From: Natrinema caseinilyticum | Lineage (GTDB): Archaea > Halobacteriota > Halobacteria > Halobacteriales > Natrialbaceae | DNA length: 64,000 bases | Direction of reading: 5' to 3' | Assembly (NCBI RefSeq): GCF_024227435.1 | Contig: NZ_CP100445.1 | Span: 3,345,369 to 3,409,368, forward strand | Part shown: piece after piece, positions 3,638-29,460 of the stretch | How the letters are laid out: each line of letters begins with the position of its first letter | Numbering within the stretch: the first letter of the stretch is position 1 | Notes under the pieces: generated by a model | Databases searched by the model: none | Seen by the model: only the letters and a program-made list of their open reading frames with translations | Told to the model about the DNA's origin: nothing | Program-made: the position numbers and the translations under genes

Positions 3638-4980
3638 GCGCGGACCGCCCGCTACTCGAGGTCGATTCCCTGGAGAAACACTTCCCAATGACACGGGGCG
3701 TGCTGAACGACGAGATCGGCCGCGTGCGGGCCGTCGATGGGATCTCCTTCGAGATCGAAGCGGGCGAAACGTTCGGCATCGTCGGCGAATCCGGGTGCGG
3801 AAAGTCGACCGCGGCACGGACCATCCTCCGTCTCGAGGAGCCGACCGGCGGGTCGGTCCGGTTCGACGGACGGGACGTCACCGAGTACGACCGGGCGGAA
3901 CTGAAGCGGTTCCGACGCGAGGCCCAGCTGGTGTTTCAGGACCCGGATTCGAGTCTGGATCCGCGAATGAGCGTCGGCGAATCGCTTGCGGAGCCGCTGA
4001 TCGTCCACGGAATGAGCGATCGCGAGCGCCGCAGATCGATCGTCGAGAAGCTCCTGGTCCGAGTCGGATTGCACGCGGACGACCTCGATCGGTACCCCCA
4101 CGAGTTCTCGGGCGGGCAGAAACAGCGAATCGGACTCGCCCGGGCGCTCGTCTTGAATCCGCGGCTGCTCGTTGCGGACGAACCGGTCAGCGCGCTCGAC
4201 GTTTCCGTGCAGGCGGAAATCCTCGAACTCGTGGCCGACCTCCAGCGGGAGTTCGGCCTGAGCGTCCTGGTCATTAGCCACAACCTCGGGATCGTTCGAC
4301 ACATCTGCGATCGCGTCGGGGTCATGTACCTCGGGAAACTCGTCGAAGTCGGCCCGGCGGGGGACCTGTTCTCGAACCCGAAACACCCCTATACGCGCGC
4401 ACTGGTTTCGGCGATCCCCTCGACCGACCGTTCCCAGCGCGGACGGCGGGTCGGACTCGACGGCGACGTCCCCGATCCCGCGAATCCGCCCAGAGGCTGT
4501 CGGTTCCACACTCGCTGTCCGGACGTCGTTCCACCGAACGGGTACGATATCGAACAGGATACCTGGCGTACCGTCCTCGACTTCAAGCAACGCGTCGAGT
4601 CGGGAATCTCGAGAGCCGAACTGTTCGATCTGGTGTATCCCGCGTCGACGACCGAAGAGCGCGAGGCCTCCGGCCGGCTGCCTGCCGGCGACGTCGAGGA
4701 CGCGTTCCGTTCCGAGTACGGACTCGACGCACCACTCGAGGACGCGCGACTCGAATCCGTGTTCGTCCGTACCGTCGAGCGGATCGCATCCGGCGACGTG
4801 GGTGCGGCCCGCGAGTTGCTCGACGACGAGTTACCGACGGTCTGCCAGCACTCGAGCCCGGATCTCGTCGCGGAGAACGGACACCGGGTCACCTGTCACC
4901 TGATCGACGAGCCACCCCGCTCGGCGGACGCACCCGCGAGCGACCGCGACGCACTTCGATCGGACGACGCGGACGAGTGA
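3634..4980 (+). CDS. ABC transporter ATP-binding protein, DppF/OppF type, with insertion in C-terminal domain
   Basis: A 448-residue ATPase; DppF is usually 320-340. The N-terminal two-thirds is standard: Walker [10 protein letters not shown], signature SGGQKQR, Walker [13 protein letters not shown], switch H in SHNLG. The C-terminal peptide-transporter motif starts at [14 protein letters not shown] (about residue 288) and is then interrupted by some 100 residues (about 305-410) containing an acidic helical segment before the motif resumes with [10 protein letters not shown] and VTCHLIDE. The insertion therefore sits between the first and last cysteines of the metal-binding motif. Similar insertions occur in haloarchaeal DppF proteins. 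The start overlaps dppD by four bases. Confidence 0.93.
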
Positions 4981-26418: not shown

Positions 26419-26553
26419 TCACACGAACGACTCGTCCGAGGCACTCGTGGGAAGTTCCGCGAGGCACCGTCGACAGTAGGAGTAAAAAAAGTCGTTTTCG
26501 GTCTCACAGACCGGGCATTCCTGCTGATCCGTGGCCTCGTCTGATGTCGACAT
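26419..26553 (-). CDS. Very small zinc-ribbon protein
   Basis: A 44-residue protein (ATG 26553, stop 26419) with CPVCETEN (residues 13-20) and YCRRC (26-30), two cysteine pairs that would bind one zinc. It is a typical haloarchaeal mini zinc-finger. The neighbouring P-loop kinase stands in the same direction, 134 bases downstream. Function unknown. Confidence 0.6.
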   Translation of the reverse strand: MSTSDEATDQQECPVCETENDFFYSYCRRCLAELPTSASDESFV

Positions 26554-26723
26554 GTGCGTCGATTCGACCCGCGGACGAAAAGACACGGGGCCCACGCATG
26601 CAAGGATCCGTCTCTCGCGACACCGATCGGATACCGACGGAGACGCATCCTCCAGTTGGCAGCACGCGCTCGAACTCTCACCGAACCGTCGGCACGCACG
26701 CACACAGACACCCACTCGAGACG

Positions 26724-27761
26724 TCACTCCCAGTCGATTTCCTCGCCGCGGCTCGACTCCCGGAGGATGAACGGGCCGATCGCCAGCGTCCGCTTCGCGA
26801 CCGTCGCGATCCGCAGGATAAAGGCGATCAACAGGAGGAAGGGAGTGACGGCGATGGTCGCCGCGAGCGCGACGACCCACACCAGATAATCGATTCCGAG
26901 GAGCGTTCCGGTCACGGCAGTGCCGTCGAAAAACGTGATCATTGACAGCGTGATCACCAGCGCGGGAACGGCCACGTACATCATCGCCCGCGAGAGGTTG
27001 ATCAACTCCCACTGGAAGTAAAGCGTCTTGAAGTGCTCACGCGCGAGGCCGAACAGTTCCAGCGTCTCGAGCAGGTCGTCGTACGCGGTCCGGGCTTCGT
27101 CGTCGAACTGGTCCGCGTAGGCGTTCTCGATCCGGCGCAGACGGAAGATTTTCCACGAATAGTTGTAGTCGAGCGCCGCCTTGAGCACGTCGTACGTCCC
27201 GAACTGTGCGTTCTCGAGTTCCTCGCGGATCGAGTCGGCGTGGGACGTGATGTTGTCGGTGAAGGCGTCGACGCGGTCACCGAACTCCTCGTCGGAGTTC
27301 TCGGAAACGGCGCCGCGAAAGTCGGTTGCGCGCTCCTCGGAGGCGGCGACGACCGCCTGGAGGAACGATGCCGGTTCGGGTGGGCTGATTGGCGCATCGA
27401 TGGCCGACTCGACGTCGTCTCGGAAGTCCATGGCACCTTCGAACCGCTCGCGCTGGTCCTCGACGGCTCCGAGTTCCTGCGAAAGGACGAGCGAGTTGAT
27501 CGTGACCACCAGCGTCACGCCGGTTATCAACGCGGTCACGAGCGCCTGGAAGGCGGTTTCGATCGGGTCGCTCGTGCCGACGAGGGCTCGAAGCGAGACG
27601 GGGCTGATTCGAGCGACGACGAGCAGACCGCCGAAGACGAAGAGCATCAATGCGGCCGTGATCACCCACCGGTTCGTGTCCAGCAACAGCCGATGTTTCA
27701 CCGTGGGGGCCTCACTACGCTGGGCCATCGTATCGCTCGGTCGGGAACCGTCGCCGCTCAT
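26724..27761 (-). CDS. Multi-helix membrane protein with large cytoplasmic loop, unknown function
   Basis: A 345-residue protein: two N-terminal membrane helices (about 31-50 and 72-96), an acidic soluble loop of about 160 residues with regular helices (RERFEGAMDFRDDVES, EFGDRVDAFTDNITS), then two more membrane helices (about 258-278 and 288-312). The pattern resembles haloarchaeal membrane proteins of unknown function; nothing in it marks a transporter or enzyme. I chose ATG 27761 (upstream frame reads into the divergent DUF5787 gene); an alternative in-frame Met is 12 codons downstream. Confidence 0.7.
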   Translation of the reverse strand: MSGDGSRPSDTMAQRSEAPTVKHRLLLDTNRWVITAALMLFVFGGLLVVARISPVSLRALVGTSDPIETAFQALVTALITGVTLVVTINSLVLSQELGAVEDQRERFEGAMDFRDDVESAIDAPISPPEPASFLQAVVAASEERATDFRGAVSENSDEEFGDRVDAFTDNITSHADSIREELENAQFGTYDVLKAALDYNYSWKIFRLRRIENAYADQFDDEARTAYDDLLETLELFGLAREHFKTLYFQWELINLSRAMMYVAVPALVITLSMITFFDGTAVTGTLLGIDYLVWVVALAATIAVTPFLLLIAFILRIATVAKRTLAIGPFILRESSRGEEIDWE

Positions 27762-27876: not shown

Positions 27877-28920
27877 GTGACTCTCCGGGCAGAGACCGAA
27901 TTCTCGTTCGAACTCCGGACGTGTCGATGGGTCGAACGGGAGTGGCAATCCGACGCGGCCGACCGCGCGCTCGTCGTCGCTCGACAGCTCGGAACGAAAC
28001 GACGCCGCTGGGACACCATCGTCCTCGAGTGCGATCCCGACGGGCTCCGTCGACGGGCGACGTTCGGCCCCGATCGGCTCGATAGCGATTTGCTTCACGT
28101 CGTCCGGAACGCCCCCGCCGAGTGGACGTATTACCGCGAGACGCTTCCACATCCCGGCTACCCGTGGCGGTACGTCCGCGAGGCGATTCACCGCGCCGAC
28201 GACCGCGGGATCCTCGAGACGAGACGGAACGGCAACCGGATCGAAATTCGACGGAAACGGGAGTATCCCGACTGGCTCGAGCGGATCGTCGCGATCGAGA
28301 ACAAACCCGACCTGGACAAGAGCGCGGCTCGAGCGCTCGCCTCCCAGCTCGAGTACGACGTCGCGATGGGGCTTGCCGACGAAGTCTGGGTTGCGACCCG
28401 TGCGACCGGCGAGCGCGTCGAACCGGTTCTCTTCGAAGGGGTCCCGGTCGAGGTCGGCATCCTCGCGCTCGATCCCGAGGCGCTGACGGGGGAGGTCGCC
28501 TGGCACCCGCGCGCGCTGGCAGCCGACGAGCCGGGAACACGGATCCTCGAGCGGCCCGACGGCGGGACGCACGACGGTTCAGCGGCTCGATTCGAATACG
28601 TCGATCCCGAGACGAAAGCCGACACCCGACTCGCGATCGCCGAGCGCGCGTACGAACGCGGCTGGCGCTCGTTCGTCGACACGATGCGCCCGGACTGCCG
28701 GCACTTCCAGTTACGGGCCGCCGACTCGCGTCAGGCGGTTCCCTATTGCGCCGCCAACGGTCGCGCCCAGACGGCCGCCGAGTGTTCCGGCGGCTGTGCC
28801 GACTTCGAGCCCGAACCACCGGCGTGGCGCACCCGCGGCTGGCCGATCGAAGGCGGGCCGGGAAAACGGTCCCAGAAACTCCTCGAGGAGCGCCGTCGAC
28901 GGCGGCGGCCGGGGCTGTAA
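27877..28920 (+). CDS. DUF5787-like protein with PD-(D/E)XK nuclease-like motifs and cysteine cluster
   Basis: A 347-residue haloarchaeal protein. Residues 131-143 read PDWLERIVAIENK, a good PD-x8-(E)xK pattern, followed at about 157-160 by QLEY, which matches the QxxxY motif of the RecB/Cas4 nuclease family. One Cys is near the N-terminus (RTCRWVE, Cys16), and the C-terminal third holds CRHFQ (274), PYCA (291) and ECSGGC (303, 307). In Cas4, AddB and Dna2 a similar distribution of one N-terminal and three C-terminal Cys binds an Fe-S cluster. The start GTG 27877 begins a compact domain; longer frames overlap the divergent gene. Nuclease activity is inferred, not shown. Confidence 0.7.
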   Translation: MTLRAETEFSFELRTCRWVEREWQSDAADRALVVARQLGTKRRRWDTIVLECDPDGLRRRATFGPDRLDSDLLHVVRNAPAEWTYYRETLPHPGYPWRYVREAIHRADDRGILETRRNGNRIEIRRKREYPDWLERIVAIENKPDLDKSAARALASQLEYDVAMGLADEVWVATRATGERVEPVLFEGVPVEVGILALDPEALTGEVAWHPRALAADEPGTRILERPDGGTHDGSAARFEYVDPETKADTRLAIAERAYERGWRSFVDTMRPDCRHFQLRAADSRQAVPYCAANGRAQTAAECSGGCADFEPEPPAWRTRGWPIEGGPGKRSQKLLEERRRRRRPGL

Positions 28921-28959: not shown

Positions 28960-29460
28960 TCAGTCGGAGACGCCGACCTCGAGACCGTCGCGCTCGAGGG
29001 CCAGTCGGAACGTCGGGACGGTTCGGTACTCGACTTCGACGACGCCCTTGCGACGCAGGCTCTGGAGTCCGGAGCGGACGTCCTCCGCGTCGGGATCGAC
29101 GTCGTACGCGTCCCGGAGCTTGTGCAGCACGGAGACCACGCTCTCTGATTCTTCGTCGGGGCCGGCGAGCACCTCGACGATCCGAGCCTGTAGTTCTGGA
29201 ACGCGGATTCGCGAGGGAATCCCGTCGTCCTCGTCGCTTTCGACGCCCGGCTCCACGTCGACGAGTTCCGCCGCGTCGGCGGTCGCGCGGATCAGACTGT
29301 TGTCGTCTCTGAAATAGTAGTCCCCGAGTTCGTTCTCGAGGTACTGGTGGACTTCGCTCCCGCTTTCCATCCCCCATCGGTCCTGGAGCTCGGCGTTCTT
29401 CGTCGGCTGTAGCTCCACCACGTCCGCCAACCGTTCAGTTGCCTCATCAGAGAGCGCCAT
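28960..29460 (-). CDS. DUF5797-like small protein with winged-helix character
   Basis: A 166-residue haloarchaeal protein. The N-terminal half has a helix-turn-helix-like arrangement (ADVVELQPTKNAELQDRWGM and SEVHQYLENELGDYYFRDD); the C-terminal half has a second helical set (SVLHKLRDAYDVDPDAED, LQSLRRKGVVEVEY), like repeated wHTH modules. This suggests nucleic-acid binding, but no operator is known. ATG 29460 is the first Met with coding character, and the tail lies 40 bases from the stop of the DUF5787 gene. Confidence 0.68.
   Translation of the reverse strand: MALSDEATERLADVVELQPTKNAELQDRWGMESGSEVHQYLENELGDYYFRDDNSLIRATADAAELVDVEPGVESDEDDGIPSRIRVPELQARIVEVLAGPDEESESVVSVLHKLRDAYDVDPDAEDVRSGLQSLRRKGVVEVEYRTVPTFRLALERDGLEVGVSD

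Follow-up and report, generated by a model that had tools for sequence, protein, structure and literature searches.

The window, by which we mean the whole 64,000-nucleotide stretch of Natrinema caseinilyticum DNA analysed here, carries on its plus strand an open reading frame at positions 27877-28920 that starts with GTG, encodes 347 amino acids and is a real gene. Its product matched the Pfam family PF19100 (DUF5787) across the full profile (positions 1 to 278) with an E value of 2.4e-123 and a score of 411.7 bits, against a gathering cut-off of 25, and a scan of the same protein against NCBIfam gave no match. Judged by its sequence, the gene is a genuine member of DUF5787, as the original prediction had assigned it, and the residues on which that prediction drew (C16, PDWLERIVAIENK at 131-143, QLEY at 157-160, C274, C291, C303 and C307) were all found where it had placed them. 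The same genome encodes a second DUF5787 copy at 34% identity beside the aIF2-gamma gene. We refer to the window gene as paralogue A and to the copy on the aIF2-gamma side as paralogue B. The features of paralogue A, together with its convergent neighbour, are as follows.

27877..28920, plus strand: DUF5787 paralogue A (PF19100), a predicted PD-(D/E)XK nuclease of 347 amino acids
27898..27912, plus strand: E8-F-x-F-E12, an invariant acidic pair on the first helix (residues 2-26 in the model)
27922..27924, plus strand: Cys16, not strictly conserved
28012..28014, plus strand: Asp46 on strand 2 (residues 44-52 in the model), the best fit to the "D" of PD-(D/E)XK
28075..28263, plus strand: predicted winged-helix insertion, residues 67-129, between the strands that carry the D and the ExK
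28267..28275, plus strand: P131-D132-W133, with P and W strongly conserved and D variable
28297..28305, plus strand: E141-N142-K143, the ExK motif, at the end of strand 134-142 in the model and followed by PDL
28345..28359, plus strand: Q157xxxD161 on the next helix (residues 148-164), overlapping QLEY
28639..28668, plus strand: AERAYxxGWR helix motif (residues 255-264), ahead of the Cys domain
28696..28797, plus strand: Cys4 domain, C274-x16-C291-x11-C303-x3-C307, a probable metal site (Zn or Fe-S)
28813..28917, plus strand: basic tail of paralogue A, modelled at low confidence, with a net charge of +7 here and without a PIP box
28960..29460, minus strand: DUF5797 gene (PF19110), convergent to paralogue A and its most conserved neighbour

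Elsewhere in the window, the 3' part of an open reading frame within positions 26419-27012 (minus strand) might specify a small product rich in Cys (CPVC...CRRC), which may be one of the small zinc-finger proteins of haloarchaea.

Within the genomes sampled, DUF5787 looks confined to the Halobacteria. A protein search recovered it from all 125 genomes of the same taxonomic family, and the Pfam profile detected it in 289 of 292 Halobacteria genomes, with at least two matches in all but three of the 289; Haloferax volcanii, a control genome of the class search, also carries it. Three Halobacteria genomes lacked it (G142, G286 and G337), and an alignment-based search of these recovered none either. 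In the phylum sample, matches occurred in 53 of 295 genomes, comprising 52 Halobacteria above the cut-off and one sub-threshold relative outside the class (G531), which was rejected as a chance match to the zinc-ribbon part of a protein read as methionyl-tRNA synthetase. No convincing match was obtained in the 242 non-Halobacteria genomes of the phylum, and no relative was found in the viral contigs searched. Beyond this phylum, the distribution check covered 14 control genomes. A quick IQ-TREE reconstruction of 90 sequences placed A and B on opposite sides of a branch supported at 100% SH-aLRT, A and B each taking in many haloarchaeal families, which fits a duplication that predates the divergence of these families.

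Conservation was counted over 181 distinct homologues (84 of paralogue A and 97 of paralogue B). Positions invariant throughout this set include E8, E12, R36, Q37, D46, W133, E141, N142, K143, Q157, D161, E256, R257, W263, R264, C274, C291 and C307, and C303 is kept in 180 homologues. The "PD" at 131-132, earlier taken as part of the nuclease signature, does not follow this pattern: residue 132 is Asp in only 156 of the 181 homologues and otherwise A, E, N, S, R or G, which rules it out as the catalytic Asp, whereas the invariant acidic residue is D46. The QxxxY motif that had been read into QLEY likewise gave way to another: Tyr occupies position 160 in 49 of 84 A sequences and does not figure among the residues common in B, and every homologue has QxxxD instead, with a varying residue ahead of the Asp. 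Because E12, D46, E141, K143, Q157 and D161 are invariant while D132 and Y160 vary, the alignment favours a catalytic set of E12, D46 and E141-x-K143 with Q157 and D161 over one of P131-D132...K143. Membership of the PD-(D/E)XK superfamily is a matter of prediction, D46 and E141-K143 being invariant and located on strands in the model; on this footing, the proposed PD-(D/E)XK fold with an intact ExK site is borne out both by the predicted models and by the presence of E141 and K143 in 181 of 181 homologues. PD-(D/E)XK folds are sometimes repurposed, and with that precedent, and with activity itself a prediction, DUF5787 might be a catalytically dead scaffold whose winged helix binds DNA. We regard such a scaffold as quite improbable, since the catalytic-type residues are all invariant in both paralogues.

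The proposed cysteine signature survived in part. C274, C291, C303 and C307 are conserved, but C16 is missing in 8 of the 181 homologues (present in 83 of 84 A and 90 of 97 B). Set against the refuting conditions of the original prediction, the predicted fold stays PD-(D/E)XK and the C-terminal cysteines hold, while the conservation of C16 fails in part. From the alignment, the conserved four-cysteine cluster is made up of the four C-terminal residues, with C16 not part of it, and these could bind Zn or an Fe-S cluster. Two genomes (G007 and G008) seemed to lack the Cys domain; in G007 the loss proved to be apparent only, due to an insertion there, with the match spanning residues 8-345.

The original prediction had further placed the protein with the Cas4/AddB-type Fe-S nucleases of the RecB family, with which DUF5787 does have the PD-(D/E)XK superfamily in common, as well as conserved cysteines, several of them, toward the C terminus. 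The layout of these residues differs, however. In Cas4 and AddB, a single cysteine in the N-terminal part is combined with three in the C-terminal part (PMC3466216), and 30 haloarchaeal Cas4 sequences show the spacing C-x(134-135)-C-x2-C-x5-C, as opposed to the C-terminal C-x(12-16)-C-x(11-12)-C-x3-C of DUF5787, in which the N-terminal C16 is dispensable, QxxxY is absent and the D lies at a different position. Profile similarity is nil, with hhalign of the DUF5787 profile against 30 haloarchaeal Cas4 sequences returning probabilities below 1% (0.2 to 0.4%), and the Cas4 Pfam family gave no match in scans of the window protein or of 45 members. On the cysteine spacing, the lack of QxxxY and the profile comparison, membership in the Cas4/AddB group was rejected, and we consider it very unlikely. 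The top structural matches were proteins other than Fe-S RecB nucleases. Cas4 and AddB were not among the VIA-align structural matches listed, an absence that is no evidence of difference. As a separate observation, Cas4 gave no match in the genome to which the window belongs and is present in 115 of 194 Halobacteria genomes.

Structures were predicted from two alignments for modelling, made up of the window protein and 44 B sequences with the A orthologues left out, and the A model rests on homologues that are 33-39% identical to the window protein. The AlphaFold models reached a mean pLDDT of 80 (A) and 84.7 (B), with lower confidence in the Cys domain and the tail. Foldseek searches with both models produced no match at E 0.001, and the same was true of the viral structure library, for which the list (none at E 0.001) includes phage entries named "DNA repair protein" and "MmcB-like". 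A CDGSH Fe-S match in the PDB was discarded as not meaningful (E 0.28). A second look with VIA-align gave 3dnx as the top match for both models (Z 10.8 for A and 11.9 for B), with 130 residues of the B model aligned at 3.0 Å and nearly the whole 146-residue chain of 3dnx covered, and it also retrieved PaqCI (Z 9.9 for A and 9.5 for B). Further PD-(D/E)XK enzymes in the list for the B model were SfsA (8.3), a Can2-type nuclease (8.2), EndoMS/NucS (7.6 and 7.5) and BamHI (6.2), alongside McrC, Can2/Card1-type entries and others of this superfamily, and the matches bring together several PD-(D/E)XK nucleases that are unrelated to one another. Winged-helix domains account for many rows in the list for the A model, where they align with residues 66-131 (Z up to 8.8, 58 residues at 1.7 Å), which places a winged helix between the D46 strand and the E141-K143 strand. 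The predicted fold is therefore a PD-(D/E)XK core with an inserted winged helix, followed by the Cys4 domain, and in the models it appears to resemble nucleases of bacterial DNA repair more than it does the CRISPR protein Cas4. The type II restriction enzymes and CRISPR ancillary nucleases among these structural matches would also be in keeping with an anti-phage or restriction nuclease. Such a role is extremely unlikely for a family that is near-universal and anciently duplicated, that gave no useful match in a PADLOC scan and that has no conserved defence-type neighbours.

The two paralogues differ at their C termini. The motif Qxx[LIM]xx[FWY] lies within the last 25 residues of paralogue B in 78 of 78 proteins taken from named genomes, mostly as QSGLDRF. 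It was seen in none of 103 paralogue A proteins (last 40 residues) and in 3 of 573 unrelated neighbour proteins. In this PIP box the textbook motif's second aromatic residue is usually missing, as it is in the Fen1 of the same genome, which ends in QTGLDRWT. The archaeal PIP consensus and the archaeal partners of PCNA have been reviewed, and Pyrococcus NucS binds PCNA through a C-terminal PIP motif (PMC4929162); unlike the Pyrococcus protein, 30 haloarchaeal NucS/EndoMS proteins had no PIP-like motif at their C termini. From its C-terminal tag, paralogue B very likely docks to the PCNA replication clamp.

Paralogue A is usually found near an opposite-strand DUF5797 gene in many haloarchaeal families and often near a Nudix gene, the DUF5797 neighbours forming a cluster of 15 among 17 loci with an assigned anchor gene, and TFIIS-like and S10-like genes also occur nearby. 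The gene matching ribosomal protein S10 (PF00338), for example at positions 4249-4581 on the minus strand of locus L085, often lies upstream of A and next to the Nudix gene. Paralogue B is located near a DUF359 gene and, in a divergent arrangement, next to aIF2-gamma, Rpb7-type RNA polymerase subunit and PIN genes. Because no operon with repair genes was present at the A or B loci examined, gene context is neutral and neither supports nor excludes a repair role. An RNA-acting nuclease, or a nucleic-acid regulator with a part in transcription or translation, would suit the aIF2-gamma, Rpb7-type and PIN genes that adjoin B and the TFIIS-like and S10-like genes near A, and the Can2/Card1-type structural matches can act on RNA too. 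We nevertheless hold an RNA substrate to be rather unlikely, as these neighbours are divergent or convergent and form no single operon, the PIP box speaks for DNA, and most of the listed structural matches with a known function are nucleases that cut DNA or winged helices that bind it.

Collectively, DUF5787 is probably a family of PD-(D/E)XK DNA endo/exonucleases with two ancient paralogues in the Halobacteria, of which B would be recruited by PCNA via its PIP box. What the analysis shows directly is the presence and conservation of the family, its old duplication and the PIP motif, and the fold and the winged helix are predictions, whereas we infer nuclease activity, a DNA substrate, PCNA binding, a role in repair and any cooperation between A and B; the most likely role is that of a metal-dependent DNA repair nuclease pair with B recruited by the clamp, and the DNA-repair function suggested in the original prediction is plausible. 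In paralogue A, E12, D46, E141 and K143 would hold a catalytic metal with the help of Q157 and D161, the grip on DNA would come from the inserted winged helix together with the basic tail, and the metal site of the Cys4 domain would be a structural one. Paralogue B, with the same active site, would be brought by PCNA to replicating or repaired DNA because it ends in a PIP box, and paralogue A may have a substrate of its own or may work jointly with B. It is also possible, if doubtful, that the co-retained paralogues form a clamp-coupled repair system of the Halobacteria's own, in which a winged helix set in the catalytic fold, a PCNA-delivered B and its partner A (possibly as a heterodimer) would handle a lesion such as a crosslink, a mismatch or a stalled fork.

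A literature search, with most subscription journals outside its reach, retrieved no paper naming DUF5787 or PF19100 and no experiment on the family, and DUF5787 is unmentioned in the searched passages of a review on Haloferax replication and repair. Nearly every haloarchaeon keeps both DUF5787 copies, and if the family includes a clamp-bound nuclease, it would be a core and so far overlooked component of genome maintenance in haloarchaea. Two relationships to known repair nucleases were considered and set aside, namely, the replacement of a missing NurA, which is ruled out by the presence of NurA in 96 of 97 Halobacteria genomes, and a complementation of NucS, of which there is no sign, NucS being present in 179 of 194 genomes.

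Among known systems, the best structural match of both predicted models is 3dnx (SPO1766), which we take to be an MmcB-type protein, the title of its PDB entry giving only "unknown function". MmcB has been described as an endonuclease of the PD-(D/E)XK type by which Caulobacter is protected against mitomycin C (PMC9578287). Compared with the MmcB-type proteins, the inserted winged helix, the Cys4 domain and the PIP box of B are features of DUF5787, and no MmcB profile came up in Pfam scans up to E 10 (A) or E 1 (45 members), in which HMMER filters may hide weak matches. The type IIS restriction enzyme PaqCI (8em1, 8epx) resembles DUF5787 in the alignment of its nuclease domain and is a much larger enzyme. 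We know of no Cys4 domain or PIP box in PaqCI. The archaeal EndoMS/NucS (2vld, 5gke) is alike in the core that aligns to the B model and, in Pyrococcus, in a C-terminal PIP motif that binds PCNA, as expected for B (PMC4929162). The N-terminal domain of EndoMS/NucS is not seen in DUF5787, whereas the winged-helix insertion and the Cys4 domain are features of DUF5787, and hhalign of DUF5787 against haloarchaeal NucS gave a probability of 0.3 to 0.4%, outside the nuclease core. The arrangement of core, winged helix and Cys4 domain, with the PIP box added in B, was not found elsewhere, and DUF5787 is predicted to represent a new family within a known superfamily.
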